A stretch of 15,837 nt of DNA from Candidatus Melainabacteria bacterium (GTDB lineage: Bacteria > Actinomycetota > Actinomycetes > Mycobacteriales > Pseudonocardiaceae): assembly GCA_903970565.1 (NCBI GenBank), contig CAJCJE010000012.1:1-15837 (forward strand), given 5' to 3'. The translations under genes were made by a program, and so were the position numbers. Under the pieces are notes generated by a model, which searched no databases, was not told where the DNA came from, and saw only the letters and a list, made by a program, of their open reading frames with translations. Position 1 is the stretch's first letter, and the number at the start of each line of letters is the position of its first letter. Of this stretch, positions 1 through 14,639 are shown piece after piece.

Positions 1-1724
1 GGCGGCCGTTGCGCAACGGCCGGTGGGGCGGCACGAAGCCGGACCGGGTCCGGGACCGGCCGGCGCGGCGGACCCTGGTGCTGGTCGGGCCGGGCGGGGT
101 GCTGCTCGACCGGATCGTCGAGCACCTGGCCGACACCGACCTGGCGCACCGGGTGATCACCTCGCCGGAGAACCTGCTGGACACCGAGCTGACCAGGGAC
201 CACGTGGTGCTGGTCGTGCCGGCGACGAGCACCGACGATGGGGCGCGGGACGCCGCGTTCGACGCGACCTGGCTGCTCACCCGTGCCGTGCAACGGGTCG
301 CCGCCGCCGGACTGCCCGCGCCGGCTCGGGTCTGGTGCGTGACGCAGGGCGTGCGGGAGGGCGCCCTGCGCCACTCCGCCCTGTGGGGGCTGGGCCGGAT
401 CGTCGGCGGCGAGCACCCCGACCTGTGGGGCGGCATCGTGGACGTCGGCGAATCCCCGCTGGACATCGAGGGTCTGCTGACCGTGCTGTGGTCGCTGCGC
501 GGCGAGGACGTGGTGGCGGTCCGGGACGGCGAAGCCTCCGTCGCTCGGCTGCGCCGGTTGGTCGGCGAGGCGACCCGACCGCCGAGGACCTGCCGGCCGG
601 ACGGCACCTACCTGATCACCGGTGGGCTGGGCGCGCTCGGCCACGAGGTCGCGCACTGGCTGGCCGACCGGGGAATGCGCCGGGTGATCCTCACCGGACG
701 CACCGCGCTGCCGCCGAGGGAGAACTGGGACGCGCTCACCGATCCGGCGCAGTGCGCCCGAGTGGAGTCGGTGCGTTCGCTGGAACGGCTGGGCGTCAGC
801 GTGACCACGGTCGCGGTGGACATCGCCGACGGCCCTCGGGCCGCGCAGGCGCTGTCGGCGGCCCTGCTCGGTCTGCCGCCGATCCGGGGGGTCGTGCACG
901 CCGCGGGGGTGCTGGACGACCGCATGGTCACCACCCTGGACGAGGAGTCACTGCGCACCGTGCTGCGGCCCAAGATCGGCGGGGCGCTGACCCTGGACAC
1001 GATGTTCCCGCCGGGCACGCTGGACTTCTTCGTCCTGTTCTCCTCCTGCGGCTATCTGCTCGGGCTGCCCGGCCAGGCCAGTTACGCCGCCGGCAACGCC
1101 TTCCTGGACGCGCTGGCCACCCGGCGCCGGGCCGCCGGGGACGACGGGACGACGAGTTTCGGCTGGACCTCGTGGCGCGGGCTGGGCATGTCGACCTCGT
1201 CCTCGGTGATCGACGCGGAACTGGCCGCGCGCGGTACCGGCGACGTCAGCCCGGCCGAGGCGTTCAGCGCCTGGGAACTGGCCGAGCGCTACGACCTCGG
1301 CTACGCGGCGGTGCTGCGGATGCGACCGCCGGAGCCGGGGATGCGCCGGTTGCCGCTGCTCAGCGAGCTGCCGGTGACCGAGCCGGACGGTCCGGCGGCA
1401 CCGGCGGAGGAGACCGGGCCGTGGGTCGGGCAGACCGGGGCGGCGCTGCACGCGTGCCTGGTGGAGGAGATCCGGCGCCAGGTCGCCAGCGAGTCCGGAC
1501 TGACCGCCTCCGAGGTGGACCCGCAGCGGCCGTTGATCGAGATGGGTTTGGACTCGGTGATGACGGTGCGGGTGCGGCGCGGGCTGGAACGACGTTTCCG
1601 GTTCGCCCTGCCGGCGACGCTGTTCTGGGACCGGCCGACCGTCGACGCGGTCGCGGCCCTACTGGCCGCCCAAATGGACGAACCCGAGCAGGCGGACGAG
1701 GTCGCGCTCGAACAAGCAGCATGA
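1..1724 (+). CDS. Type I polyketide synthase, C-terminal part (KR-ACP), probably iterative aromatic type
   Basis: The frame is open to the left edge, so this is the 3' part of a larger gene; residue numbers count from the TTG at position 9. Residues about 20-440 form a ketoreductase: a structural subdomain, the NADPH loop GGLGALG (205-211), and catalytic Lys322, Ser346, Tyr359 and Asn363. An LDD motif at 302-304 is the signature of B-type ketoreductases. An acyl carrier domain follows (about 480-555) with phosphopantetheine serine 516 in GLDSVMT. No thioesterase follows before the TGA at 1722-1724. The ACP end (GLDSVMTVRVRR, then LPATLFWDRPTV) reads to me like bacterial 6-methylsalicylate/orsellinate synthases (KS-AT-DH-KR-ACP), which fits the aryl-acid ligase next door. 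KR and ACP calls are secure. The iterative aromatic assignment is an inference from recall, because KS, AT and DH lie outside the window; a last module of a modular PKS is the alternative. Confidence 0.9.
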   Translation, partial: RPLRNGRWGGTKPDRVRDRPARRTLVLVGPGGVLLDRIVEHLADTDLAHRVITSPENLLDTELTRDHVVLVVPATSTDDGARDAAFDATWLLTRAVQRVAAAGLPAPARVWCVTQGVREGALRHSALWGLGRIVGGEHPDLWGGIVDVGESPLDIEGLLTVLWSLRGEDVVAVRDGEASVARLRRLVGEATRPPRTCRPDGTYLITGGLGALGHEVAHWLADRGMRRVILTGRTALPPRENWDALTDPAQCARVESVRSLERLGVSVTTVAVDIADGPRAAQALSAALLGLPPIRGVVHAAGVLDDRMVTTLDEESLRTVLRPKIGGALTLDTMFPPGTLDFFVLFSSCGYLLGLPGQASYAAGNAFLDALATRRRAAGDDGTTSFGWTSWRGLGMSTSSSVIDAELAARGTGDVSPAEAFSAWELAERYDLGYAAVLRMRPPEPGMRRLPLLSELPVTEPDGPAAPAEETGPWVGQTGAALHACLVEEIRRQVASESGLTASEVDPQRPLIEMGLDSVMTVRVRRGLERRFRFALPATLFWDRPTVDAVAALLAAQMDEPEQADEVALEQAA

Positions 1725-1725
1725 G

Positions 1726-1732
1726 AAGGAGG
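1726..1732 (+). promoter_or_regulatory. Strong Shine-Dalgarno of the aryl-AMP ligase
   Basis: AAGGAGG lies 8 bases before the ATG at 1741 and begins just after the PKS stop codon. It fixes the ligase start and shows that the two genes are very probably co-transcribed. Confidence 0.85.
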
Positions 1733-1740
1733 TCCGCGAT

Positions 1741-3399
1741 ATGAGCCCGGATGGCTTCGTACCGTGGCCGGCAGACCTGGCGCACGTCTACCGGGCTGCG
1801 GGGTGCTGGTCGGACCGCACGCTGGGGTCCTACCTGTGGGAGTGGGCCGAACGCTGGCCGCACCGAACCGCGCTGGTGGACGGCCCGCACCGGCTGACCT
1901 ACGCCGAACTCGCCGCACGCGCCGACCGGCTGGCCGAGGAGCTGTCCCGGCGCGGCCTCGGCCGGGGGGACGTCGTCCTGGTGCAGCTGCCCAACTGTTG
2001 GGAGTTCGTCGCGGTCACCCTGGCCTGCTTCCGGCTCGGCGTGGTGCCGACGATGATGCTGCCGCCGCACCGCGAGCACGAGCTGACCGCGATCGGCGCG
2101 CACGTCGGGGCGAAGGCGCTGGTCGTGCCGGACACCTGGCGCGGTTACGACCACCAGGACCTCGCGCACCGGGTCGCGGCGGCGCTGCCGGGAGCACCGC
2201 AGGTGCTCGTGGTCGGTGCGCGGGTCCGACCGGACTCGGTCGACGTGCGCGGACTGCTCGCGCCGGGCGGGGACGTCGTGGCCCGGCGGCGCCGGTTGGA
2301 CGAGCGGGCGCCGGCCCCCGGCGACATCGCGCTGTTCCTGCTGTCCGGGGGCACCACCGGGACGCCGAAGGTGATCAGCCGCACGCACGAGGACTTCCGG
2401 TTCAGCATCGACAACTGCACCAGGGCCTGCGGCATCACCTCGGACACGGTGTACCTGGCGGTACTGCCGGTCGGACATGCCTTCCCGCTGTCGAGCCCAG
2501 GAGTACTGGGCACGCTCTACCGGGGCGGCCGGGTGGTGCTGCTGCCCTCGCCACAGCCGGAGACGGTGTTCACCGCGATCGAGGCCGAGCGGGTGACGGT
2601 GACCTCGGCCGTGCCGGCGGTCGCGCTGAAGTGGATGGCCGCGGCCCGCACCAGCACGCACGACCTGGCATCGCTGCGCTACCTGCACGTCGGCGGCTCC
2701 ACCCTGGCCCCGGAACTGGCCGCGCAGATTGGTCCCGCCCTGGGTTGCCGCCTGCAACAGGTGTACGGCATGGCCGAGGGGTTGATCTGCTACACGCCGC
2801 CGGACGCGCCGGCCGAGGTCAGCTGCCATACCCAGGGCAAACCCGTGAGCCCCTACGACGAACTGCTGGTCGTGGACGAGGCCGGCCGGCCGGTGGCGCC
2901 GGGCGCGGAGGGTGAGCTGCTCACCCGTGGCCCGAGCACGCCGCGCGGCTACTTCGGGGTGCCCGGCCAGAACGAGCTCAGCTTCACCCCGGACGGCTGG
3001 TTCCGTACCGGGGACGTGGTGCGGCTGACCGCCGACGGCGACGCGGTGGTCTGCGGCCGGGTGAAGGACCTGATCAACAGGGGTGGCGAGAAGATCGCCG
3101 CCGCCGAGATCGAGCTCCTGGTCCAGGAGTTGCCCGAGGTCGCCGAGGTGGCCGCGGTGCCGGTGCCCGATCCCGAGGTGGGCGAACGGGTGTGTGTGGT
3201 GGTCCGGTTGCACCCAGGCCGGGAACTGACCCTGGCCAGGATCTCGACGGCGCTGACCGCGCGCGGCCTGGCCGCGTTCAAGATCCCGGAACACCTTGTG
3301 CTGCTTGACGAGCTGCCGCACACCGCGGTCGGCAAGGCCGACAAGAAGGCGTTGGCGCGCCTGCTGGCCACACCCGTGCGCAGCCAACTGGCCGCCTGA
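1741..3399 (+). CDS. Stand-alone aryl acid adenylating enzyme (2,3-dihydroxybenzoate-AMP ligase-like)
   Basis: 552 residues, the usual length of DhbE/EntE/YbtE-type ligases. These activate an aryl acid with ATP and pass it to a carrier protein or to CoA. Visible ANL motifs: P-loop LSGGTTGTPK (201-210), YGMAEG (342-347), TGD (423-425), GRVKDLINRGGEK (439-451) and the C-terminal catalytic Lys532 in VGKADKK. The segment VGHAFPLSSPG (244-254) aligns with the aryl-binding HN-(Y/F)PLSSPG of DhbE: the histidine (246) is kept but the asparagine, which contacts the 2-hydroxyl of dihydroxybenzoate, is Ala247. The start is set by an AAGGAGG site, 16 bases after the PKS stop. By context the substrate is probably the aromatic acid made by the upstream PKS, as for the ligases that activate PKS-derived aryl acids in enediyne clusters. 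The family is secure; the exact substrate, and whether the acceptor is CoA or a carrier protein, cannot be read here. Confidence 0.92.
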   Translation: MSPDGFVPWPADLAHVYRAAGCWSDRTLGSYLWEWAERWPHRTALVDGPHRLTYAELAARADRLAEELSRRGLGRGDVVLVQLPNCWEFVAVTLACFRLGVVPTMMLPPHREHELTAIGAHVGAKALVVPDTWRGYDHQDLAHRVAAALPGAPQVLVVGARVRPDSVDVRGLLAPGGDVVARRRRLDERAPAPGDIALFLLSGGTTGTPKVISRTHEDFRFSIDNCTRACGITSDTVYLAVLPVGHAFPLSSPGVLGTLYRGGRVVLLPSPQPETVFTAIEAERVTVTSAVPAVALKWMAAARTSTHDLASLRYLHVGGSTLAPELAAQIGPALGCRLQQVYGMAEGLICYTPPDAPAEVSCHTQGKPVSPYDELLVVDEAGRPVAPGAEGELLTRGPSTPRGYFGVPGQNELSFTPDGWFRTGDVVRLTADGDAVVCGRVKDLINRGGEKIAAAEIELLVQELPEVAEVAAVPVPDPEVGERVCVVVRLHPGRELTLARISTALTARGLAAFKIPEHLVLLDELPHTAVGKADKKALARLLATPVRSQLAA

Positions 3400-3460
3400 C
3401 CCCGTCCGAAGAGAAGTCTGGTAATCCGTTCAGTGATGCACGCCTCACAATGAAAAACGC

Positions 3461-3502
3461 ACACGAAAACCGTGTACCCCGTCCGATTCGCGGTGACGAA
3501 TC
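3461..3502. promoter_or_regulatory. Two inverted repeats in the gap after the ligase gene (candidate operators)
   Basis: The 319-base gap 3400-3718 holds ACACG-aaaac-CGTGT (3461-3475) and, ten bases on, the perfect 6-bp inverted repeat GATTCG-cggtga-CGAATC (3485-3502). Neither is followed by a T-run, so operator sites for the small downstream gene are more likely than an intrinsic terminator. I see no other feature in the gap; its reading frames lack G/C-biased third positions. Confidence 0.35.
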
Positions 3503-3718
3503 CACGGGGGACAACTGACAATGGCCTGGCCAGAAATGAGATGTGCATATCGCGGGAGATGAGCTTTGCACAACTGGTGGAATCACCGGAAACGTGTCCG
3601 GTCCGACCGCAACGGTCACCACATCCACCAGCCAGCGAACCGGCAGGGGGGTGCCGGCCGAACCAGCCTGGGCACCCACGAACCAGCGTGATGCCCACGT
3701 AGTCGCCGGGAGGTAGCT

Positions 3719-3937
3719 ATGAGCACGGCCACCAGACAGCACACCTGCGCGGTCTGCGGGAGTCCTTTCCTTCCTCAGGACCGCATCGACCTCGAACCAC
3801 TGATCGACGGCGCGATCCGCTACATCGCGGTGCACGCCGAGCACAGCACGTTCGCGCCGCCGCGCCTACAGCACAGGACCGGTCGCCCGACCGCGGGCAC
3901 CACGCACGCCGAACGCGCCAGCCGGCAAGCGGCCTGA
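3719..3937 (+). CDS. Small protein with possible C2H2-like metal site
   Basis: 72 residues. I do not recognise a named family. GGGAGGT (3708-3714) lies just before the ATG and supports this start. The N-terminal half carries CAVC (Cys10, Cys13) and, 25 residues later, HAEH (His39, His42), a spacing that could hold one zinc ion; between them is the acidic-hydrophobic stretch IDLEPLIDGAIRYIAVHAEH. The C-terminal 25 residues are basic and look disordered. There is no signal peptide or membrane segment. It is in the same direction as the PKS and ligase but 319 bases downstream, so it may have its own promoter. The codon pattern and ribosome site favour a real gene; the function is unknown. A RiPP precursor is unlikely because there is no repetitive or Cys/Ser/Thr-rich core. 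Confidence 0.6.
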   Translation: MSTATRQHTCAVCGSPFLPQDRIDLEPLIDGAIRYIAVHAEHSTFAPPRLQHRTGRPTAGTTHAERASRQAA

Positions 3938-3973
3938 GCCAACGCCTTTGGGTACACCGGGGAGCGCACTCGA

Positions 3974-3996
3974 CGCCGTGGTCGGCAACCACGACG
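3974..3996. terminator. Hairpin between convergent genes
   Basis: CGTGGT (3977-3982), loop cggca, ACCACG (3988-3993) form a perfect 6-bp stem, extended by two more pairs past one mismatch. It lies between the convergent 72-residue gene and the AraC-family gene. There is no U-tract, which is common for actinobacterial terminators. Confidence 0.4.
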
Positions 3997-4061
3997 CGAG
4001 CGCGCACGCCGGCAGGTGATGGTCAGCCACGCGACGCCGCGCCGACGAGGCCGGCATCCGC

Positions 4062-4964
4062 TCAGGCGACCGAGCGCAGGTGCGGACCCCCCTGGGCGCG
4101 TAGCCGGGTGTTGGCCGAGGTGGGGCGAGGCGCCAGGGTGATCGCGAACGGCGGGTCGATCGGGCCCGGCAGGCGCATGTGCAACCGCACGTGGCCGGCT
4201 CGGTCCGCACGCACCGACACGTTCTGGCGGGTCGAGCCGAGGGAGAACGTGGAGTTGGCCGTGCCGGGAAAGTGCTCCGCGATGGCGATCACCCACCACT
4301 CCCCCTCCGGCACCCCGTGGATCTCCACGTCGCCGGTGCCGGAGTTCATCCGGCCGGTGAAGGCCACCGGGCCGCGCTGCGGGACGGCGTCCCCGAACAC
4401 GCCGACGAGCATGTCCGCGGGCGGCGCGCCGGTGGGCATCTCGATCCTGGCGTGGATGGTGCCGTTGCCCAGGCTCGCCGACGCGCAGGCGTGCCCGGCC
4501 TCGCGCAGTTGGGGCAGCGGCGGCAGGTGGCGGAAGTGCGGGGCGAGCGCGACCAGGAACTGCGCGACCTCGGGGTCGCGGTACTCGGTCGGTGTCATGC
4601 CCACCGCGCGGGTGAACCGGCTGGTGAACGTGCCCACGCTGCTGTAGCCGACGCTACAGACCACATCCGAGACGGTCAGCGTCGTGGTCAGCAACAGTCG
4701 CTTGGCCTCGAACAGCCGGATCGCGGTGAGGTAGCGGCCGGGGGTCACCCCGGTTGCCTGCGCGAAGATCCGGGAGAAGTGGAACGGGCTGACGAACACC
4801 TCGGCCGCCAGCTCGGTCAGCGTGATGGAATCGAAGTACCGAGCGCGCATGGACGCGATCGCCTGTAATACCGCCGGATGCAGCATCGGCCGAAGCGCGG
4901 TGCCGGCGCGGTTGTCGTCGGTCCGTTTGACGGTGACCGACGGGACGGCGTGCAAGTGCCCCAT
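4062..4964 (-). CDS. AraC-family transcriptional regulator with N-terminal HTH
   Basis: 300 residues. The DNA-binding domain is near the N-terminus (about 32-130): two helix-turn-helix units, the first around ITLTELAAEVFVSPFHFSRIF and the second around LTVSDVVCSVGYSSVGTFTSRF, ending in the family hallmark VGMTPTEYR (121-129). Most AraC proteins have this domain at the C-terminus; here about 170 residues of unrecognised, beta-rich sequence follow it and may sense a ligand. The ATG is supported by GAGGT (plus-strand ACCTC at 4971-4975) seven bases upstream. The gene is divergent from the SARP gene across 358 bases, so it probably reads from, and may act on, that shared region. Its ligand and targets are not visible. 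The family call is secure. Confidence 0.9.
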   Translation of the reverse strand: MGHLHAVPSVTVKRTDDNRAGTALRPMLHPAVLQAIASMRARYFDSITLTELAAEVFVSPFHFSRIFAQATGVTPGRYLTAIRLFEAKRLLLTTTLTVSDVVCSVGYSSVGTFTSRFTRAVGMTPTEYRDPEVAQFLVALAPHFRHLPPLPQLREAGHACASASLGNGTIHARIEMPTGAPPADMLVGVFGDAVPQRGPVAFTGRMNSGTGDVEIHGVPEGEWWVIAIAEHFPGTANSTFSLGSTRQNVSVRADRAGHVRLHMRLPGPIDPPFAITLAPRPTSANTRLRAQGGPHLRSVA

Positions 4965-4985
4965 TATCAGACCTCGAATTCAGAG

Positions 4986-5009
4986 TTCTGGCATTCCGGG
5001 GTACCAGAA
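4986..5009. promoter_or_regulatory. Inverted repeat upstream of the AraC-family gene (candidate operator)
   Basis: TTCTGG (4986-4991) and CCAGAA (5004-5009) are perfect inverted arms separated by 12 bases, 22 bases before the AraC-family start codon. The position suits an autoregulatory operator. This is inferred from geometry only. Confidence 0.35.
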
Positions 5010-5123
5010 AATAGCCTGACGGTTTCGATATTCCTGAAGACCGGTTGAGACCGCTACCAGCGCGGGTGCACACCACCGGAAAAACACGCTTATGGAGGCC
5101 AATTGGCGAGAACAGCAGGTCAG

Positions 5124-5157
5124 GGTTTATGCTGAAAGGGACTTTAAACCGGTTTAT
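5124..5157. promoter_or_regulatory. Palindrome and repeated GGTTTAT upstream of the SARP gene
   Basis: TAAACCGGTTTA (5145-5156) is a perfect 12-bp palindrome in an AT-richer stretch. GGTTTAT occurs twice in direct orientation (5124-5130 and 5151-5157, 27 bases apart), and TTTCGATAT also occurs twice in the same intergenic region (5023-5031 and 5194-5202). These could be regulator sites for the divergent AraC and SARP promoters. The 27-base period does not match the usual 22-base SARP box spacing, so SARP self-binding is not claimed. Confidence 0.3.
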
Positions 5158-5322
5158 TCCGGACAATTCTGGCGGCGCCAGTGCAACTCATCATTTCGAT
5201 ATGAAGAACACACAAGCCCGCCAATGCGGCCGTCACTGGATTTGATTCCGGCCCCTGTGTCACTGTCAAACCTCAGGCAACCGTGGCCGATTTCTCGGCC
5301 GCGTTACGACTGGGGGACCACC

Positions 5323-6186
5323 ATGCGACGCAATCTGGGAGACGCAGCGATGGACACCGAGACCAGTGTAACGAACGGTGTCGGCGGTGCCGCGTCACGG
5401 GTACTGATGTCCTCGCGCGAGGTCCAGTTTCGGGTACTGGGACCGCTGGAGGTCGTCAAGGACGGTATCGACTACGCCCCGACCACACCGAAGATCCTGC
5501 AACTGCTGGCGATCCTGGTGATCCGGCCGGGGAAGATCGTGCACCTCGACTCGATCATCCGAGAACTGTGGGAGAGCGAGCCGCCACGCAGTATGCGCAA
5601 GACCGTGCACACCTACGTGCACCACCTGCGCCGGTGCATCGAGCAGAACGAACTCGCGCGGGACGCGGAGTCCCTGGTGGTCACCCGCTCCCCCGGCTAC
5701 CTGTTCCGGATCGACCCGACGCAGGTCGACGTGTGGCGCTTCCAGCAGTTGCACCAGCAGGGCCGCGAACTGCTGCGCCGCAACGACTTCGCGGAGGCAG
5801 CAAGCTGCTTCCGGGATGCGCTGGGCATGTGGAGCGGTGCGCCGCTGGCCAACGTGCAGACCGGGCCGATGCTCTCCGCGTACTCCGTCGAACTGCTCGA
5901 ACAGCGGCGCAGCGCGCACCACCTGCGCATCGAGGCGGAGATCCACGCCGGAGGACACCGGGAACTGATCGGCGAACTGCGCTCGCTGGTCGCCGCGAAC
6001 CCGCTGGACGAGGGACTGCACGGTCAGCTCATGCGGGTCCTGGGCCGCAGCGGCCGGCGCTCGGACGCGATGGCGTCCTACCGCGCGCTGCGCAACAGGT
6101 TGCACCACGAACTGGGGGTGGAACCTTGCGACGAACTTCAACTCCTGCACCACGAGCTGTTGTCCGAAGGAGACCAAGCCTCCTAG
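5323..6186 (+). CDS. SARP-family pathway activator (winged helix plus BTAD)
   Basis: 287 residues, the size of small SARPs such as ActII-ORF4, RedD and DnrI. These bind direct heptamer repeats and switch on antibiotic biosynthetic genes. Residues about 35-130 are an OmpR-like winged-helix domain that starts at the typical VQFRVLGPLEV (34-44). Residues about 137-282 are the helical bacterial transcriptional activation domain, including the typical ANPLDEGLHGQLM and RLHHELGVEP. The frame is open upstream, but the upstream codons lack G/C bias. ATG 5323 has GGGGGA at 5312-5317. ATG 5350 (with GGGAGA 5337-5342) and ATG 5407 are alternatives giving shorter tails. It is divergent from the AraC gene and probably the main activator of the cluster; the HxlR pair starts 59 bases downstream. 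Family secure, exact start uncertain. Confidence 0.92.
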   Translation: MRRNLGDAAMDTETSVTNGVGGAASRVLMSSREVQFRVLGPLEVVKDGIDYAPTTPKILQLLAILVIRPGKIVHLDSIIRELWESEPPRSMRKTVHTYVHHLRRCIEQNELARDAESLVVTRSPGYLFRIDPTQVDVWRFQQLHQQGRELLRRNDFAEAASCFRDALGMWSGAPLANVQTGPMLSAYSVELLEQRRSAHHLRIEAEIHAGGHRELIGELRSLVAANPLDEGLHGQLMRVLGRSGRRSDAMASYRALRNRLHHELGVEPCDELQLLHHELLSEGDQAS

Positions 6187-6245
6187 TCGGTCCGATCGCA
6201 CCACGCACAACCCCCACCGCACGGCAGGAAAGTGAGGACGGACGC

Positions 6246-6929
6246 ATGAACACCCGAACCTACGGTCAGATCTGTGGGCTGGCCCGCGCAATGGAGCTCG
6301 TCGGCGAACGCTGGGCGATGCTCGTCGTGCGCGATCTGATCCTCGGTCCCAAGCGGTTCGCCGACCTCCAGCACGGCCTGCCGAGGATTCCGGCCAGCCT
6401 GCTTTCCGCGCGCCTGAACGAACTGGAGAACACCGGGGTGGTCCGTCGGCGGGTGCGCTCCCAGCTGGATGCCGCGGTCGTCTACGAACTCACCGAGTAC
6501 GGCGGCGAGCTGGAGCAGATCATGCTGCAACTGGGCCTGTGGGGCGCGCGCTCGCTCGGCGAGCCCAGCCCGAGCGACGTGTTCACCCTGGACGCCGCGA
6601 TCCTCTCGCTCTACACCACGTTCCGGCCGGAGGCCGCGCTGGGCGTGCACGTCAACTACGAGCTGCACTACGGTGACATGATCGTGTACGCGATGGTGGA
6701 CGACGGCGCGCTCAAGGCGGCCGAAGGTGCCCACCCGGACGCGGACATCGTGATCGAGCCCGACCTGTCGGTGCTGCTCAAGCTCCTCACCGGCGAGATG
6801 ACCGCGACCGAGGCGATCGCCAGCGGGCAGGTGCGCATCCAGGGTCCGATGGAGCACCTGGACCTGTTCACCGAGCTTTTCCAGGTCCCCGCCGCGCCGG
6901 CGCCGGCCGAGGGGCTCGTCGTCCGCTGA
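6246..6929 (+). CDS. HxlR-type regulator fused to SCP2-like domain (copy 1)
   Basis: 227 residues. The N-terminal winged helix (about 8-105) is HxlR/MarR-like: ELVGERWAMLVVRDLILGPKRF, then LPRIPASLLSARLNELENTGVV, then YELTEYG. The conserved family cysteine before the first long helix is present (Cys10 in QICGLARAMEL); in HypR/YodB-type members an N-terminal cysteine senses oxidants or electrophiles. Residues about 115-218 form an SCP2-like sterol-carrier fold (for example VIEPDLSVLLKLLTGEMTAT), which may bind a hydrophobic ligand. GAGG at 6234-6237 supports the ATG. It follows the SARP gene by 59 bases and precedes a paralogue by 33, so the three are probably one transcript. It may sense the pathway product or an aromatic intermediate; that is inference. 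Confidence 0.9.
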   Translation: MNTRTYGQICGLARAMELVGERWAMLVVRDLILGPKRFADLQHGLPRIPASLLSARLNELENTGVVRRRVRSQLDAAVVYELTEYGGELEQIMLQLGLWGARSLGEPSPSDVFTLDAAILSLYTTFRPEAALGVHVNYELHYGDMIVYAMVDDGALKAAEGAHPDADIVIEPDLSVLLKLLTGEMTATEAIASGQVRIQGPMEHLDLFTELFQVPAAPAPAEGLVVR

Positions 6930-6962: not shown

Positions 6963-7736
6963 ATGGCCGACCAGCAGGGTGTGCCAACGGGACGGACCGC
7001 GCGGACGCTGCGGACGCTGCGCCAGGTGGATATCGGGATCGATCTGTTCGATCCGGGGGAGATGTCGGCGGTCGTCATGGAGTTCGAGGCGATCACCAAG
7101 CGCTCCTACGGGCAGTTCTGCGGGGTGGCCCGTGCCCTGGAGGTCATCGGCGAGCGATGGGCGCTGCTGGTCGTGCGGGACCTGCTGGTCACCGCGAAGA
7201 CGTTCGACGAGCTGCGGCGCGGCCTGCCGCGCATTCCAGCGGACACGCTGGCCACGCGACTGCGGCAGTTCGAGCGGGCCGGGATCACCCGGCGCCGGAC
7301 GCGGGCCGGCCAGCCGGAGGTGGAGGTGCACGAACTGACCGAGTACGGCCGGCAACTCGACGAGATCACGCTGCGGCTGGGCCGGTGGGGCGCGCAGATG
7401 CTGCACGATCCCCGGCCGGAGGAGATCGTCACCCCGGACTCGCTGGTCATGGCGATGCGCGCCACCTTCCGGCCGGAGCACGCCCACGACGTGCGGGCGG
7501 TCTTCGAGATCCACATCGAGGACATCGTGATCAATCTCGTCGTGATGGACGGAACCCTGCGCGCCACCACGGGTGAGCACGAGGCACCGGATCTGGTGAT
7601 GTACCCAGGGCGCGCGATGCAGTTGCTGATGTCCGGCGAGATGACCCCGCACGAGGCGCTGACCGACGGGCACGTGACGGTCTCCGGCGATCCGGTGCTG
7701 CTGACCAGGTTCAGCGAGATCTTCCGCATCGGCTGA
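6963..7736 (+). CDS. HxlR-type regulator fused to SCP2-like domain (copy 2)
   Basis: 257 residues, a clear paralogue of the preceding gene: the same helix (EVIGERWALLVVRDLLVTAKTF), the same cysteine (Cys53 in QFCGVARALEV), then LPRIPADTLATRLRQFE and HELTEYGRQL. An SCP2-like domain follows (about 155-256; DLVMYPGRAMQLLMSGEMTP). GGAGGA at 6954-6959 supports ATG 6963, which gives a 40-residue N-terminal extension that copy 1 lacks. ATG 7077 would begin at the homologous point but has no well-placed ribosome site. The extension includes a repeated GCGGACGCT at about 7000-7017. Tandem duplication followed by divergence is likely; the two may form homo- or heterodimers. The next gene starts 98 bases downstream. 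Confidence 0.9.
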   Translation: MADQQGVPTGRTARTLRTLRQVDIGIDLFDPGEMSAVVMEFEAITKRSYGQFCGVARALEVIGERWALLVVRDLLVTAKTFDELRRGLPRIPADTLATRLRQFERAGITRRRTRAGQPEVEVHELTEYGRQLDEITLRLGRWGAQMLHDPRPEEIVTPDSLVMAMRATFRPEHAHDVRAVFEIHIEDIVINLVVMDGTLRATTGEHEAPDLVMYPGRAMQLLMSGEMTPHEALTDGHVTVSGDPVLLTRFSEIFRIG

Positions 7737-7834: not shown

Positions 7835-8170
7835 ATGACATCGTTGGCACATTCGGAACCGACTCAGCTCGCCGAGGGGGACACCGCGGGTATCGCGCGC
7901 CAGTTCATCACCGCGCTGCGCTACCTGCCCTCCTGGGGACGGGACGAGGTGCTGCGCAGACTGATGATGGTGATAGCGCAACACGAACGTACCGACGACC
8001 CGTCCGTGGTCGAGCACTTCCTGGAAAGCCTGGTGATGACCGCGCGGATGGAGCGCGATCCGGCGTACCTGATGGCCGAGGCCGAGCGGGAGTCTCCCGG
8101 CGAACCGCGCGACATCGCCGAGGTGATCGCGGGAATCGAGACGGGTCGCCGTGACGAACCCGGAGCGTAG
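7835..8170 (+). CDS. Unrecognised small helical protein, first of an overlapping pair
   Basis: 111 residues, no family recognised. AAGGGAG (7822-7828) six bases before the ATG supports the start. The sequence reads as mostly alpha-helical: RQFITALRYLPSWGRDEVLR, then RLMMVIAQHERTD, then VVEHFLESLVMTARMERD, with an acidic tail. It has no cysteine, signal peptide or membrane segment. Its last 20 bases overlap the GTG-initiated next gene in another frame, a strong sign of translational coupling and of a joint function or complex. It lies between the regulator pair and the SagB-like dehydrogenase on the same strand, so a partner role for that enzyme is possible but unproven. Confidence 0.75.
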   Translation: MTSLAHSEPTQLAEGDTAGIARQFITALRYLPSWGRDEVLRRLMMVIAQHERTDDPSVVEHFLESLVMTARMERDPAYLMAEAERESPGEPRDIAEVIAGIETGRRDEPGA

Positions 8171-8552
8171 GCGGCGCCGACTCAACCTCGGCGTCGCGCG
8201 TCTGGCGCGGTGGGCGGGCACCGCCAGCCAGGTGGAGAAGAACGCCGTGTACGAGGCGCTGTTCGCGGTGTCCGACGGTTCGGTGTTCCGCACCCACACG
8301 GTGCTCGACGATGTGCAGCGGACCGGCGAGTTCTTCGTGCTGGTCCGCGAGAGCCTGGTGTTGAAGGTCAGTATGCATCCCTTCAACACCTTCGGCATCC
8401 TCTACATCGGGCCCCAGGACGTGGTGCAGGACGAGCCGACCCCACCAGCCGAGACACCGCCGCCGACGATGCCGGACAAGACCCTTCCCCGCGACGAAGG
8501 TTCGCGGGACGCACCAGCCGAAACGCCGGATCACCGACGCGCGCCGAAGTAG
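8151..8552 (+). CDS. Unrecognised small protein, second of an overlapping pair
   Basis: 133 residues from GTG 8151, overlapping the previous stop by 20 bases. The start is favoured by this coupling, not by an obvious Shine-Dalgarno. Residues 1-30 are basic (RRRRRLNLGVARLARW), about 30-90 form a compact alpha/beta-looking domain (VYEALFAVSDGSVFRTHTVL, EFFVLVRESLVLKVSMHPF, GILYIGP), and from about 90 the chain is proline-rich, charged and probably disordered. No signal peptide, membrane helix or catalytic motif is visible. I recognise no family. The central domain could be a small binding fold paired with its upstream neighbour. Confidence 0.72.
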   Translation: MTNPERRRRRLNLGVARLARWAGTASQVEKNAVYEALFAVSDGSVFRTHTVLDDVQRTGEFFVLVRESLVLKVSMHPFNTFGILYIGPQDVVQDEPTPPAETPPPTMPDKTLPRDEGSRDAPAETPDHRRAPK

Positions 8553-8635: not shown

Positions 8636-8750
8636 AGATTGTTGCTCTGATTCAGGAGAGGGCCGAATCCCCTCGACATGGAATTGCTCGTACCCGACCA
8701 GAGCCGGACCGACATCGGCCCGCCCACCGCGATGACAATCGCGCCGGGAA

Positions 8751-8767
8751 TACGCCGCTTTCCGGCG
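8751..8767. repeat. Second perfect hairpin in the leader of the SagB-like gene
   Basis: ACGCCG-ctttc-CGGCGT is a perfect 6-bp stem with a 5-base loop, 95 bases before the start codon at 8863. With the 8619-8635 repeat it makes the 310-base gap 8553-8862 the most structured in the window. Readings in this gap do not look like a gene. Confidence 0.45.
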
Positions 8768-8862
8768 TGTTCGTTCGGCCAGGACACACCGTCCGCGCCG
8801 ACCCGACGCTCTCAACCCAGTTTCCGCGTTCGCCTGAAACGTGTCCCTCACGAGGAGCTCCC

Positions 8863-10311
8863 GTGTCCAAGGATTCGGACGACCGCCGCACGGCACGGGT
8901 CCAGCTGTGGTCGTTGCGCGAGGACGTCCTCGTCGAGGACGCCCCCGGCCAGGAGCGGCTGGTGGTGATCACCCAGTGGGGCGAGGTCGTCATCCACCCC
9001 GTCGACGAGACGGTGCGCGAGTCGCTGCGGCGGATGAGCCTTGGCCCGGTCTCCCTGGAGAACGTGCTCACCCCACGGCGTGGGGTGCGCCGCGACGGGA
9101 CGAACCTGCGGCAGGTGCTCAACCAGCTGAGCGGTTCGGTGGTGCGCTCGCTGGGTCTGTCCGACGGGGAGGCACCGCTGCTGTCCGCGGTCCCGGTCAC
9201 CCGGCACGCCGCGCTGCACCTGCCCAGGATCGAGGCACGCAGCCCGATCCGGCTCTCCCGGTTCACCATCATGCGGGCGCACGGGGACGAGTTGATGCTG
9301 GAATCGCCGCTGGCCGAGTACGACGTCCTGCTGCACCGGCATCTGGCCGCTCAGACCGTGGCCGCGCTGGCCGGTGTCACCTCGGCGCCGGAGATCGCGG
9401 AGTTACTCCGCCTGTCGACCGACCTGGTCGCCGACATCCTGGCCTACCTCGTGGGCACCGGAGTGGCGCTGTCCGGGGAGCGCGACCCGGAGACCGGACG
9501 GGCCACCTTCGCCGAGGACAGCGACCCCACGCTGATCCGGTGGTCGCACCACGACCTGCTGTTCCACGTGCGCAGCCGGATGGGCCGCCACGGCGGCCCC
9601 TCCGGCGCGGTGTTCCCGTACGCGGACAAACTGCCCGCACCGGATCTGGTCAAACCGCTGTCCAGCGGCGAGTTGTACTACCTCTACCGCCCCGACATCA
9701 CCAACCTGATCGCCACCGACCCGACCCTGACCGAGGTGCTGGAGAACGCGCGGCGGTATTCGGAGCTGACCGACCGACCCCTGACCGCCGAACAGGTGGG
9801 TGAGCTGCTCTTCCGCGCCGCGCGCATCCGCTCGGTCGCTTCGGAGTCCACCGCCCAGGTGAGCTACGCCGTCTCCGACCGTCCGTACCTGAGCGTGTTC
9901 GGGCTCTACGAACTCGAACTGTACGTGACCGTGCACAACTGTCTCGGCCTGCCGAAGGGCATCTACCACTACAACCCCCGCGCACACGCGCTGGCGCTGG
10001 TCAACGACTCATCCTCCGAACGCGGCGAGTTACTCGACGGCGCGCGGGTGGCGGCGCGGACGTCCGTGCAGCCGCCGATCCTGATCTCACTGACCGTGCG
10101 CGTCGAGCGCTCCTCCTGGATGTACGGGGGCATCGGCTACTCGCTGACGCTGGCGCACGTCGGCGCTCTCCAGCAGACGTTGTGCCTGGTTGCCAACGCG
10201 ATGGGGCTCGCGGCGTGCGCGCCCGCGGTGGACCCCGGTGATGCCACCGACGGCGCGCTGCGCCTGGACACCCCGGCTGAGGTCGCGGTGGGTGAGTTCA
10301 TCGTCGGGTAG
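8863..10311 (+). CDS. SagB/ThcOx-family flavin dehydrogenase with altered active-site motifs
   Basis: 482 residues from GTG 8863, chosen because GAGGAG (8852-8857) lies 5 bases upstream; the frame opens earlier at 8767 without a ribosome site. Residues about 13-70 form an N-terminal domain common in actinobacterial SagB proteins (LWSLREDVLVED onward), about 130-260 a helical middle, and about 290-482 the nitroreductase-like flavin fold (LTAEQVGELLFRAARIRS; YELELYVTVHNCLGLPKGIYHYNP; AHVGALQQTLCLVANAMGLAAC; VGEFIVG). SagB/McbC enzymes use FMN to oxidise azolines to azoles on peptides. Two hallmarks differ here: the usual PYPSGGA(S/L)YELE reads PYLSVFGLYELE (341-352), and the K-Y pair needed for catalysis in BcerB is Met420-Tyr421 (SSWMYGG). 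No YcaO cyclodehydratase or precursor peptide is in the window. The fold assignment is good; azoline oxidation is doubtful. Confidence 0.85.
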   Translation: MSKDSDDRRTARVQLWSLREDVLVEDAPGQERLVVITQWGEVVIHPVDETVRESLRRMSLGPVSLENVLTPRRGVRRDGTNLRQVLNQLSGSVVRSLGLSDGEAPLLSAVPVTRHAALHLPRIEARSPIRLSRFTIMRAHGDELMLESPLAEYDVLLHRHLAAQTVAALAGVTSAPEIAELLRLSTDLVADILAYLVGTGVALSGERDPETGRATFAEDSDPTLIRWSHHDLLFHVRSRMGRHGGPSGAVFPYADKLPAPDLVKPLSSGELYYLYRPDITNLIATDPTLTEVLENARRYSELTDRPLTAEQVGELLFRAARIRSVASESTAQVSYAVSDRPYLSVFGLYELELYVTVHNCLGLPKGIYHYNPRAHALALVNDSSSERGELLDGARVAARTSVQPPILISLTVRVERSSWMYGGIGYSLTLAHVGALQQTLCLVANAMGLAACAPAVDPGDATDGALRLDTPAEVAVGEFIVG

Positions 10312-10325
10312 GCCCGAAAGGCCGA

Positions 10326-10350
10326 CTCTGGCCGGTATGCCCGGTCAGAG
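10326..10350. terminator. Bidirectional hairpin terminator between convergent genes
   Basis: CTCTG-g-CCGG (10326-10335), loop TATGC, then CCGG-t-CAGAG (10341-10350) form a 10-pair stem with one G-T wobble. It starts 14 bases after the SagB-like stop and contains the response-regulator stop codon (10345-10347). The symmetry would serve both transcripts. A smaller GGCC-cgaaa-GGCC hairpin lies just before it at about 10311-10323. Confidence 0.75.
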
Positions 10351-10950
10351 CCAGCCGGAGTCCTTGGCGATCCGGATGGCGTCCACCCGGTTGCGCGCGT
10401 TGAGCTTGCTGACCGCCGCCGTGAGGTAGTTGCGGACGGTTCCGGCGGACAGGTAGAGGTGCGCGGCGATGTCCACCACGTTGGAACCGTTGGCGGCCAT
10501 CCGCAGCACCTCGATCTCCCGGCCGGTCAACGGGCAGTCCGCGCTGTCCCAGGCAGCCAGGGCGAGGTCGCTGTCCACCACTCTGCGGCCGACCGCGACC
10601 TCGCGGATGGCACTGGCCAGCTTGTCCGGGGGCGCGTCCTTGAGTAGGAAACCACCCACCTTGGCGGCCAGTGCCCTGCGCAGCGTGCCGGGCCGGCCGA
10701 GGCTGGTCAGGATGAGCGTGCGGATCTCCGGCAGGTGCTCGTGGATCTCGGCCGCCGCGGTCAGACCATCCTTGCCGGGCAGGTCGATGTCGATGACGGC
10801 GACGTCCGGCTGGGTTGTCCGGGCGGTGGGCAGGATGTCGTCGCCGTTGGCGACCTCGGCGACCACGTCGATGTCCGGCTCCAACCTGAGCAACGCGACC
10901 AGCGCTCCGCGCACCATGTGCACGTCCTCGGCAATCACTACCCTGATCAT
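10345..10950 (-). CDS. NarL/LuxR-type response regulator
   Basis: 201 residues. The N-terminal receiver domain has the acidic pair Glu8-Asp9, phospho-acceptor Asp54 (VIDIDLPGKDG), Thr82 and Lys104 (LLKDAP), so it looks phosphorylatable. The C-terminal LuxR-type HTH (about 138-200) begins LTGREIEVLRMAANGSN and contains the recognition helix around SAGTVRNYLTAAVSKL. It resembles DesR-like regulators paired with DesK-type kinases. GGGGAGG on the minus strand (plus 10959-10965) sits 8 bases before the ATG at 10950 and fixes this start over an upstream in-frame option. No histidine kinase lies beside it in the window, so the sensor is elsewhere or it is an orphan. It is convergent with the SagB-like gene, whose regulation it need not control. 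Confidence 0.93.
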   Translation of the reverse strand: MIRVVIAEDVHMVRGALVALLRLEPDIDVVAEVANGDDILPTARTTQPDVAVIDIDLPGKDGLTAAAEIHEHLPEIRTLILTSLGRPGTLRRALAAKVGGFLLKDAPPDKLASAIREVAVGRRVVDSDLALAAWDSADCPLTGREIEVLRMAANGSNVVDIAAHLYLSAGTVRNYLTAAVSKLNARNRVDAIRIAKDSGWL

Positions 10951-11888
10951 CGCCTGTGCCTCCCCATGTGGCCGCCCCCTAAGTTCCGGTGTCCGCAATT
11001 AGCCCGATCAGCTGCGGGTACCTGTCGCCCAATCAAATCAATTGTGCAAGGTACATGCCCAAGAGTGAGCGACCGAGTACGGCCCGTGGCGGATACCGAA
11101 CCGTGCACGACCCGACGATCCAGGAATCACCACCCAGCCCCCGTTTCCCCGTTTGCGCATTGGCACGATTAGCGTAATAGGAATGACCGCCAAAAACTAC
11201 GGAACCGCATAATAATACGTTGTCAGTCGAATCGCGGATGTCAAACCAGGACGTGGTGGATCGAAGCGACGGTGCTCGATGCCACCCCGTCGGCCCGGAA
11301 CCGACCGCCGATCGTCCAGGCCCCGACCACCGCGACTCGCCGTCCGGCCAGGCAACTCTCGCATCAGGCCCCGCCACCACCCCGGCACAGGACTCGGTCG
11401 GTTCGCGTCGTCGAACCAGCCACCGTGATCATCCACCAATGGCGGTGTCGGCCGTGCCGGGACCTTGACCCGCGCTCTCGCGTGACGGATCGATTACCCG
11501 ACGCGACGCATCGTGGGCCACAATGGATTCGCGCCCAAGGATTTGTCCACGAACTACGGTTCATTCCCGTTCGTCGCTCCCCTGCCGCCGACCGTTCCCC
11601 GACGAGCGACGGACCGGTCACGCAGCGGTGATCACGCCGTCCGCGCCGAACCTCGCCGGACCCGGCCAACCGTGTCATCGACCGATTTGTCGCACTCGGC
11701 AACCTGTTGCCACAGTAAGCGGGACGTGGCCGTATCGCCGAGAACGAGTCGATCTCACGAAAGATCTCGTTGGCTATGATCGCCGCGCGGATCAACGGCA
11801 CCCGCCTCGCCGAAGATCAGCCCAGAGGTGCGCGTGACGACGGGACCGGGCAGATGGACTAACGCCCACCCACCCGTTCGGTCATGGT
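10951..11888. other. Long stretch without a convincing gene; possible degraded reading frame at its end
   Basis: About 0.94 kb. Next to the response regulator there is AT-richer sequence (about 10990-11060 and 11160-11235) that may hold promoters. I see no tRNA, CRISPR or insertion-sequence ends. At 11632-11862 on the plus strand one frame reads like protein with G/C-rich third positions (ANRVIDRFVALGNLLPQ, then IAENESISRKISLAMIAARI), but it is broken by TAA at 11716-11718, has no clear start and ends at 11860-11862. It may be the tail of a lost gene. Confidence 0.5.
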
Positions 11889-13649: not shown

Positions 13650-14639
13650 TCACGCTGCCGCACCGACCGGTGACTCCTCCACGGCGGCGGTGAGCAGTTC
13701 CCGGATGTCGGCCAGGGTCCGGGCCGGTGGTCCCGCGATTCGGCCGCGCGGGTCGACCAGCACCGCCGCCGGGGTGCTGTGGAGCCGGTACCGGCCGGCC
13801 ACCTCGGCCCGGTGTTGCACCAGCAGCCCGGTCACGTCGAACCTGTCCGCCCAGGCCGCGTTGGTTTCCGGGTCGCCGCCACCGATCGGGACCAGGGTGA
13901 TCCGGCCGGCGGCGCGTGCCCGCCAGTAGGCGAACTCGGCCGCGAACATCGTGCACATGGCGCAGTCCGGGTGCACGAACAGCAACACCGCGGGCCGCCC
14001 CTCGGCCAACAACGCGGCCAGGTTCGTCCTCCGGCCGGTCACGTCCGGCAGTTCGAAGTCCGGGGCCGGCGTGTCGGCCGGCAGGCCGCCGGTACGCGGC
14101 CGGTTCGCCCGCAGCACGGCCACTTCGGCGCGCAGCACACGCAGCAGGATCGCCTGCCGCACCTGCACCACGGTCAGTACCAGTACCGCGGTCAGACCCA
14201 GGCCGGGGCCGGTCGGCAGCATCCACGGCAGGCCGGGCACGGCCACCGAGCCGACCAGCGCGGACGCGGCCAACACCGCGAACCCGGCGTTGCGCACCAC
14301 CGTCCAGCCGCTCACCGGGGCGCTCACCCCGAAACACGAGCAGCGCGGTCGCCGCCCTCGGCGCAACTGCACGCCCACCGCGACGGTGAACATGGCCAGC
14401 AGCACCAACGCGGCCACGCAGCCGGCCACCGCGGTCGCCGGGAACAGCACCAACACCGCGACCACGAGTTCGGTCACGGGCAACGCCAGGGCGCCCGGCG
14501 CGACGAGACGCGCCGGGGCCCCGAAATCCGCAAGCGAATGCCGCACCGAATTCGGTTCGGTGAATTTACCGAACGCAGCCGCCACGAACACCGCCGCACT
14601 GACGACGCGCAGCGCCCATATCACGTATTCGGCCAGCAT
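13650..14639 (-). CDS. MauE-MauD-type fusion: membrane thiol oxidoreductase with thioredoxin-fold domain
   Basis: 329 residues; TGGAG lies shortly before the ATG. Residues 1-165 are a MauE/DoxX-like membrane part with about five hydrophobic segments (near 5-24, 50-70, 73-92, 117-135 and 147-166) and the MauE motif RCSCFG (Cys100, Cys102), followed by [10 protein letters not shown]. Residues about 185-320 are a redoxin domain with HPDCAMC (Cys226, Cys229), cis-proline Pro290 in STPAAVLVD, and an entry strand APDFELPDV. In methylamine utilisation, MauE and MauD are separate proteins needed for disulfide formation in the small dehydrogenase subunit; here both functions are joined. No methylamine dehydrogenase genes are present. 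It starts 33 bases downstream of the BP74-like gene, so the two are probably one operon. Whether the redoxin domain faces out is uncertain: a fifth helix would put it outside, but the following segment is basic. Confidence 0.87.

Follow-up and report, generated by a model that had tools for sequence, protein, structure and literature searches.

A Lys-Tyr pair is important in BcerB and in the microcin B17 oxidase McbC (PDB 6gos/6grh), where the pair is active, and enzymes of the TruD type by themselves yield azolines. The structure of the cyanobactin azoline oxidase ThcOx (CyaGox; PDB 5lq4/8pz5) contains FMN, according to the accessible part of its report (PMC5108345). For BmdC, the thiazoline oxidase of the bacillamide NRPS (PDB 7ly4-7ly7), the available portion of the published account (PMC8795117) gives the FMN contacts as R145, R146 and S147 (phosphate), R149 (N1/O2), N236 and G294, adds that residues 182-186 touch FMN by their backbone from the other protomer, and names Tyr260 as the proposed base. 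The same portion describes an FMN-free BmdC mutant that still induced dimerisation of its partner, the mutant keeping some affinity for FMN.

The window, by which we mean the whole 15,837-nucleotide stretch analysed here, carries at 8863..10311 (plus strand) a gene for a SagB/ThcOx-family protein of 482 residues, which starts with GTG and whose open 482-codon frame is preceded by a ribosome-binding-like GAGGAG sequence. On curated profiles the protein belongs to the SagB/ThcOx dehydrogenase family, scoring 129 bits with TIGR03605 (cut-off 78.4), 75.9 bits with the PF22767 ThcOx profile (cut-off 27.7) and 25.4 bits with PF00881 (cut-off 23.5); the first two scores bear out the preliminary description of a real SagB-family reading frame. 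ThcOx is its nearest solved relative (182 bits). The architecture is likewise that of the family, with two N-terminal winged-helix domains of the RRE, or peptide-clamp, type at 8893..9153 (residues 11-97) and 9238..9483 (residues 126-207), both on the plus strand, followed by a domain of nitroreductase fold whose FMN site is altered. Structure comparison found the RRE fold in both N-terminal domains, at Z values that unrelated winged helices reach as well, and sequence-profile comparison of these domains with the RRE of YcaO gave weak matches (13% and 23% probability).

Three motifs of the flavin site differ from those of intact relatives. The W-K-Y triplet is W419-M420-Y421 here (10117..10125, plus strand), so that M-Y does replace K-Y at 420-421 as first described, and the stretch that was once the FMN loop, where intact relatives have PGGGA or PSGG, reads LSVFG (9889..9903, plus strand, residues 343-347); the substitution of LSVF for PSGG reported earlier was thus read again as L343-S344-V345-F346, in alignment with the FMN loop of BmdC (182-186). 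The third is the former FMN phosphate/N1-O2 motif, RRSxR in intact relatives and A296-R297-R298-Y299-S300 in the window (9748..9762, plus strand), which was located with the ThcOx alignment and a motif table and which corresponds to BmdC R145-R149 when aligned through RRSIR of ThcOx. The alignment further places BmdC K259 at M420, Y260 at Y421, N236 at A397 and S292 at A453. The window SagB therefore has none of the three features of an active azoline oxidase, namely RRSxR, a PSGG or PGGG loop and the Lys-Tyr pair, while R297 (BmdC R146) and Tyr421 (BmdC Y260), the tyrosine of the pair, are kept. The earlier remark that the rest of the fold is intact holds for the overall fold, which is predicted to be so, but not for RRSxR, and residues 343-346 have pLDDT <50 in the predicted structure. 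The reading that we favour, at a probability of about 0.62 and judged from sequence comparison, is that this SagB is a pseudo-oxidase kept for leader binding and/or complex assembly, in a pathway that would give azoline rather than azole peptides.

The altered residues recur among homologues. Residues were counted over the 119 proteins that, besides the window's own, make up the best 120 of 996 matches in a protein search: position 419 is Trp in all 119; position 420 is Met in 111, Ile in 6, Leu in 1, Pro in 1 and Lys in none; position 421 is Tyr in 105 and Phe in 14; position 343 is Leu in 94 and Pro in 21; and position 344 is Ser in 114. The equivalent of BmdC S147 is Ser in only 14 of these best listed homologues and that of R149 is Arg in 15. 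Homologues about 57-67% identical to the window SagB carry the same motif, and Phe replaces Tyr421 in proteins of up to 64% identity (P0019). On these alignments the loss of the lysine is clade-wide, neither due to chance nor peculiar to the window SagB, and the conservation of the altered residues across the 119 homologues indicates a site that has been fixed anew, with no free drift.

The alternative that survives best is that the protein goes on oxidising azolines with FMN in a pocket of altered shape, where Tyr421 acts as the base, R297 and the loop backbone hold FMN and the lysine is dispensable. It can call on the prevalence of Y421 and M420 among the best listed homologues just given, on the backbone contacts of the BmdC loop and the proposed role of Tyr260 (PMC8795117, the portion cited above), and on copies without the lysine that are otherwise flavin-intact or nearly so: L033, L081 and L111 keep the other three flavin features, and L046, L050 and L051 keep the loop, the tyrosine and most of RRSxR. 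Because of these six copies, three intact and three nearly so, loss of the lysine proves nothing on its own. We nevertheless consider continued oxidase activity unlikely, given that most of the listed homologues have exchanged the counterparts of S147 and R149, that close homologues among the best listed have Phe in place of Tyr in 14 of 119 cases, and that other clades lose the tyrosine or the entire domain beside an unchanged YcaO. L051, from Prochloron, is an oxidase-domain copy in which RLY takes the place of WKY and the PGGG loop and the tyrosine are kept.

That wider decay is graded. Among 86 full-length copies from the loci, which are interdependent in that L066-L094 partly duplicate genomes of L004-L063, 20 have RSxR, loop, Lys and Tyr together, these being rows picked for RSxR, Lys and Tyr, and 22 have none of the four. 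At 28 of 112 YcaO loci the gene between YcaO and the kinase stops after the two N-terminal domains, at about 220-240 residues; 29 SagB matches end before residue 250, and L105, where SagB is split into two frames beside YcaO, was discounted as a split gene. In genus code g25 every one of the 24 genomes with YcaO has the truncated form, one YcaO copy being examined per genome and a few of these genomes having a second. Eight loci have YcaO with no SagB match (C654, L101, L106, L107, L108, L109, L113 and L114), four of them single-copy (L101, L106, L107, L108) and two, L113 and L114, second YcaO copies; at L109 SagB is reduced to a C-terminal fragment beside YcaO. In a YcaO tree of 54 rows, built by a quick search with SH-aLRT support only and rooted on 8 intact rows as outgroup, 13 rows with truncated SagB form one clade (SH-aLRT 100) and the 8 intact rows another, absence of SagB requires 4 changes and loss of the tyrosine 5. 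YcaO itself does not follow: in all 46 non-intact rows tested its Glu and Arg positions are invariant, the conserved set comprising both Glu and the Arg of ExxER, the Glu-Arg of ERD and the Glu and Gln of RALTExxQ. Values of dN/dS, rough ones obtained by the Nei-Gojobori method on GC-rich genes, are 0.05-0.21 for the flavin domain in 10 degenerate pairs versus 0.33-0.47 in 3 intact pairs, and 0.16-0.34 for the truncated SagB proteins in 5 pairs; judging from these substitution rates, the remaining parts of SagB are under purifying selection. The suggestion in the preliminary description that the protein may have lost flavin chemistry thereby gains strong comparative support, from a site that decays by degrees until the domain itself is gone, next to a YcaO that stays the same.

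The low dN/dS of the flavin domain, with the frequency of M420, L343 and S344 in the best 119 listed homologues, could also mean that the domain has been adapted to another ligand or a new reaction, with the fixed WM(Y/F)GGI(G/A)Y and LSxxG sequences as the new site. This we regard as improbable: truncated relatives manage without the domain, no new catalytic motif is apparent, and a packing or dimer interface would account for the conservation too.

The pseudo-oxidase reading also fits the company that these genes keep, the usual order in relatives being precursor-YcaO-SagB-kinase-LuxR. YcaO, SagB, one or more histidine kinases and, on the opposite strand, LuxR occur in that order at most loci of Actinokineospora, Kibdelosporangium, Actinocrispum, Labedaea, Actinophytocola and Amycolatopsis, often with a SARP gene upstream. 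Within the 390 genomes of the window's family, a SagB relative (E 1e-60) is found in 96 and YcaO in at least 136; at least 95 of the 96 also have YcaO, and at least 88 of 102 SagB copies in the family lie within 1 kb of it. The window retains much of this setting. A LuxR-type response regulator (10345..10998, minus strand), separated from the end of SagB by 33 bases with no kinase between, has copies 67-84% identical near SagB at most of L004-L021, L026, L037, L041 and L063, and is a conserved cluster member. Upstream lie a SARP regulator (5092..6186, plus strand), 62-75% identical to genes upstream of YcaO at L014, L016, L037 and L041 and elsewhere matched at 31-39% or with none seen; an HxlR-SCP2 regulator (6195..6929, plus strand; PF01638, PF02036) with 61-69% identical copies at L016, L018, L021, L026, L037 and L041; a second HxlR-SCP2 regulator with the same two domains (6963..7736, plus strand; PF01638, PF02036); and an AraC-family regulator (4062..4964, minus strand) with 62-65% identical copies at L016, L037 and L041. 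At these last three loci, all from Amycolatopsis, the counterparts of the window's SARP, HxlR, AraC and LuxR genes are 61-76% identical. A sequence resembling ATGAARAACAC/GC recurs upstream of cluster genes (window 3450 and 5201; L095 1243; L004 3605; L010 7355; L016 7379) and may mark a promoter that these genes have in common or a site for LuxR.

Between the upstream regulators and SagB stands a gene for a DUF6235 protein (8151..8552, plus strand; PF19748, 111.5 bits). Its paralogue on contig C654 of the source genome immediately precedes YcaO; the only two copies found in that genome thus stand one before SagB, with a YcaO relic between, and the other before YcaO. DUF6235 occurs in 68 of the 390 family genomes, SagB being present in 65 of the 68 and within 50 kb in 49. 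On L095 DUF6235 lies at 896-1228. As a precursor DUF6235 was rejected, since in relatives YcaO is preceded by different short peptides that have a leader in common.

The preliminary description had found no YcaO in the window. There is indeed no intact gene, but a C-terminal relic in two frames lies at about 8672-8837 (plus strand), and an intact YcaO stands on C654 of the same draft. The C-terminal YcaO segment matches window 8672-8848 at 41% identity (tblastn, E 2e-6), and a profile of 112 YcaOs matches 8672-8761 with 19.6 bits (E 4e-6), the best score in 60 triplet-shuffled windows being 6.9 bits; the terminal LNP motif of YcaO follows in another frame at 8769-8831, a weak match that is not significant alone (3.0 bits, E 0.4). 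The stop that closes this second frame is 25 bases upstream of the SagB start, and the relic, between DUF6235 and SagB, occupies exactly the place of YcaO in relatives. The source draft genome (G000) comprises 1020 contigs and is 75% complete with 3.6% contamination, so that the membership of the window and C654, both taken from it, in one genome is assumed. C654 carries, in order, DUF1702 (minus strand), DUF6235, the only YcaO found in G000 (1341-3644), a double histidine kinase (3892-6318) and a 58-residue peptide frame (6934-6761, minus strand). Its YcaO is a fused E1-YcaO protein that resembles TruD and LynD over its whole length (510.6 and 502.1 bits) and scores 269.8 with TIGR03604 (cut-off 219.25) and 151.3 with TIGR03882 (cut-off 36.9). 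DNA shared by the window and C654 is confined to DUF6235 (window 8162-8413 against C654 931-1182, 80.6% identity), and a search of C654 for a SagB relic gave nothing better than E 1.7. A match to the kinase at window 4359-4475 (E 0.004) is antisense to the AraC gene and was taken as chance. Duplication of the cluster and reciprocal loss, leaving SagB with a YcaO relic in the window and the intact YcaO on C654, would account for this arrangement. It is very doubtful that SagB is an unused remnant on its way out of the source genome, as the adjacent YcaO relic and the 33-base gap to LuxR without a kinase might suggest, considering its open 482-codon frame with a ribosome-binding-like sequence, homologues about 57-67% identical with the same motif, and an intact YcaO and candidate precursor elsewhere in the draft. 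L111 (genome G042) is another split or duplicated cluster: it has two SagB genes, one of which lies close to a short fragment resembling YcaO (E 2e-5), and a few kb away there is an intact YcaO accompanied by a precursor.

The 58-residue peptide encoded on the minus strand of C654 (6934-6761) has the leader motif common to the peptides of relatives and a core that reads ...AITTTCGVALGIQSAA; the motif is LVIDNFDPW in this peptide, ahead of the core RNRPGMAITTTCGVALGIQSAA, and LVIDEFDxW across the candidate precursor family to which it belongs. A leader followed by a core bearing Cys, Ser or Thr is what a TOMM or azol(in)e RiPP cluster has, and makes this peptide a candidate precursor; the YcaO of such a cluster is supplied by C654, the window itself holding only the relic. 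A precursor model built from 20 peptides and run against 29,005 short frames matched 31 loci at E ≤0.001, 11 of them outside the model set and including the truncated-SagB loci L103 and L104 and the SagB-less loci L101 and L107. At E 0.001 it matched none of the other 26 of 28 truncated loci, nor L015, L022 and L024, nor any of the 24 g25 loci, for 20 of which about 1.5-2 kb upstream of YcaO was covered; the best match at a locus outside the cluster type had E 0.86. The window itself, as first reported, has no azole precursor, none being found by the leader motif and no window frame appearing among profile matches up to E 5. A candidate precursor at L005 in Actinokineospora fastidiosa, from 7397 onward, has many WPTT units, and one near 10809 at the second YcaO copy L114 has repeat units like SVCRVEQP and a weak profile match (E 0.35).

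With this family context of a RiPP cyclodehydratase cluster, its candidate precursor and the YcaO relic, the lack of a cyclodehydratase no longer points to a different pathway, as had been proposed. A carrier-bound or small-molecule substrate, also proposed, is not supported. The only carrier domain among the scanned window proteins is the PKS end at 9-1724, which was not seen as a conserved member of the neighbourhoods of relatives. As regards an NRPS heterocyclisation module of the kind that goes with a BmdC-type Ox domain, the profile scans of the window brought up only the KR-ACP end of the PKS and the AMP ligase. The idea was dropped in that neither has a conserved counterpart beside SagB in relatives, matches like the AMP ligase occurring in a few relatives' loci, scattered and 23-35% identical. 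The genes themselves span 9-3399, where the terminal part of a type I PKS module (KR, ACP) is followed by a DHB-AMP-ligase-like gene that scores below the model cut-off. A MauE and thioredoxin-like fusion protein is encoded at 13650-14639 on the minus strand.

Under the pseudo-oxidase reading, the window SagB would derive from an azoline oxidase like ThcOx that worked in an actinobacterial RiPP pathway to thiazoline or oxazoline peptides, and would have given up ordinary FMN-dependent azoline oxidation. The precursor leader would be held by the RRE of YcaO and/or the first RRE of SagB, the N-terminal RRE domains of SagB holding the leader and/or docking on the TruD/LynD-like cyclodehydratase. 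YcaO would then form azolines on the Cys, Ser and Thr of the core, and SagB would leave them unoxidised while helping to hold the leader and the complex, its former oxidase domain, now presumably free of FMN, having at most a structural role. In the source genome the cluster appears split, with regulators, DUF6235 and SagB in the window and YcaO, the double kinase and the precursor on C654, so that SagB would act in trans and the two contigs would work jointly. Against this reading stand the confinement of domain loss to relatives, the backbone nature of the BmdC loop contacts, the retention of R297, the conservation of the altered residues, the copies that lack the lysine yet keep other flavin features, the many truncated loci that the precursor model misses, the weak profile matches of the N-terminal domains to the YcaO RRE, the structural tie with unrelated winged helices and the assumed membership of both contigs in one genome; it is the kept Tyr421 and conserved M420, leaving room for an altered oxidation or a new reaction, that hold our confidence at the level given above. 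For Pseudonocardiaceae and related actinobacteria at large, we put the chances about even that an azoline oxidase was turned stepwise into a flavin-free, leader-binding subunit of the cyclodehydratase, ending as a stand-alone double RRE in the oxidase's place in the operon.

If true, this would be an evolutionary route from tailoring enzymes to RiPP scaffold proteins, along with an azoline-only peptide family that has a new type of leader, LVIDEFDxW. Many of the listed homologues are named 'SagB family peptide dehydrogenase', which would predict azoles, and if our reading is right the products of a large set of clusters in actinobacteria are predicted wrongly. With forms that run from an active oxidase down to two RRE domains alone, the family provides a natural experiment on the part that an azoline oxidase plays, oxidation aside, in the work of its cyclodehydratase, and informs on the origin of scaffold proteins in RiPP pathways; the candidate precursor family offers a leader motif that can be tested.

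The components are of known kinds: a ThcOx-like oxidase, a TruD-like cyclodehydratase and RRE domains. Three things appear to be new: a flavin site dismantled throughout a clade while the neighbouring cyclodehydratase stays intact, the double-RRE endpoint and the LVIDEFDxW precursor family. No described case of such a SagB group was found in the literature searched, which had most subscription journals outside its reach, and the available part of Cox 2015 (PMC4603692) describes no such group. Compared with known systems, ThcOx has RRSIR, PSGG and WKY where the window SagB has ARRYS, LSVF and WMY. BmdC, unlike the window SagB, acts on a carrier-bound substrate, has a single RRE-like domain and keeps its flavin motifs, while McbC, in the accessible portion of PMC8795117, differs in being without an N-terminal domain. 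The YcaO of C654 is of the same fused E1-YcaO type as the cyanobactin heterocyclases TruD and LynD, whose systems differ from the present one with its LVIDEFDxW precursor leader and its kinase/LuxR and SARP regulators. Stand-alone RRE proteins (lasso B1, PqqD, the PbtF RRE) share the winged-helix fold with the N-terminal domains of SagB, but SagB has two of these in tandem, and in its truncated relatives an oxidase gene has been reduced to this pair.
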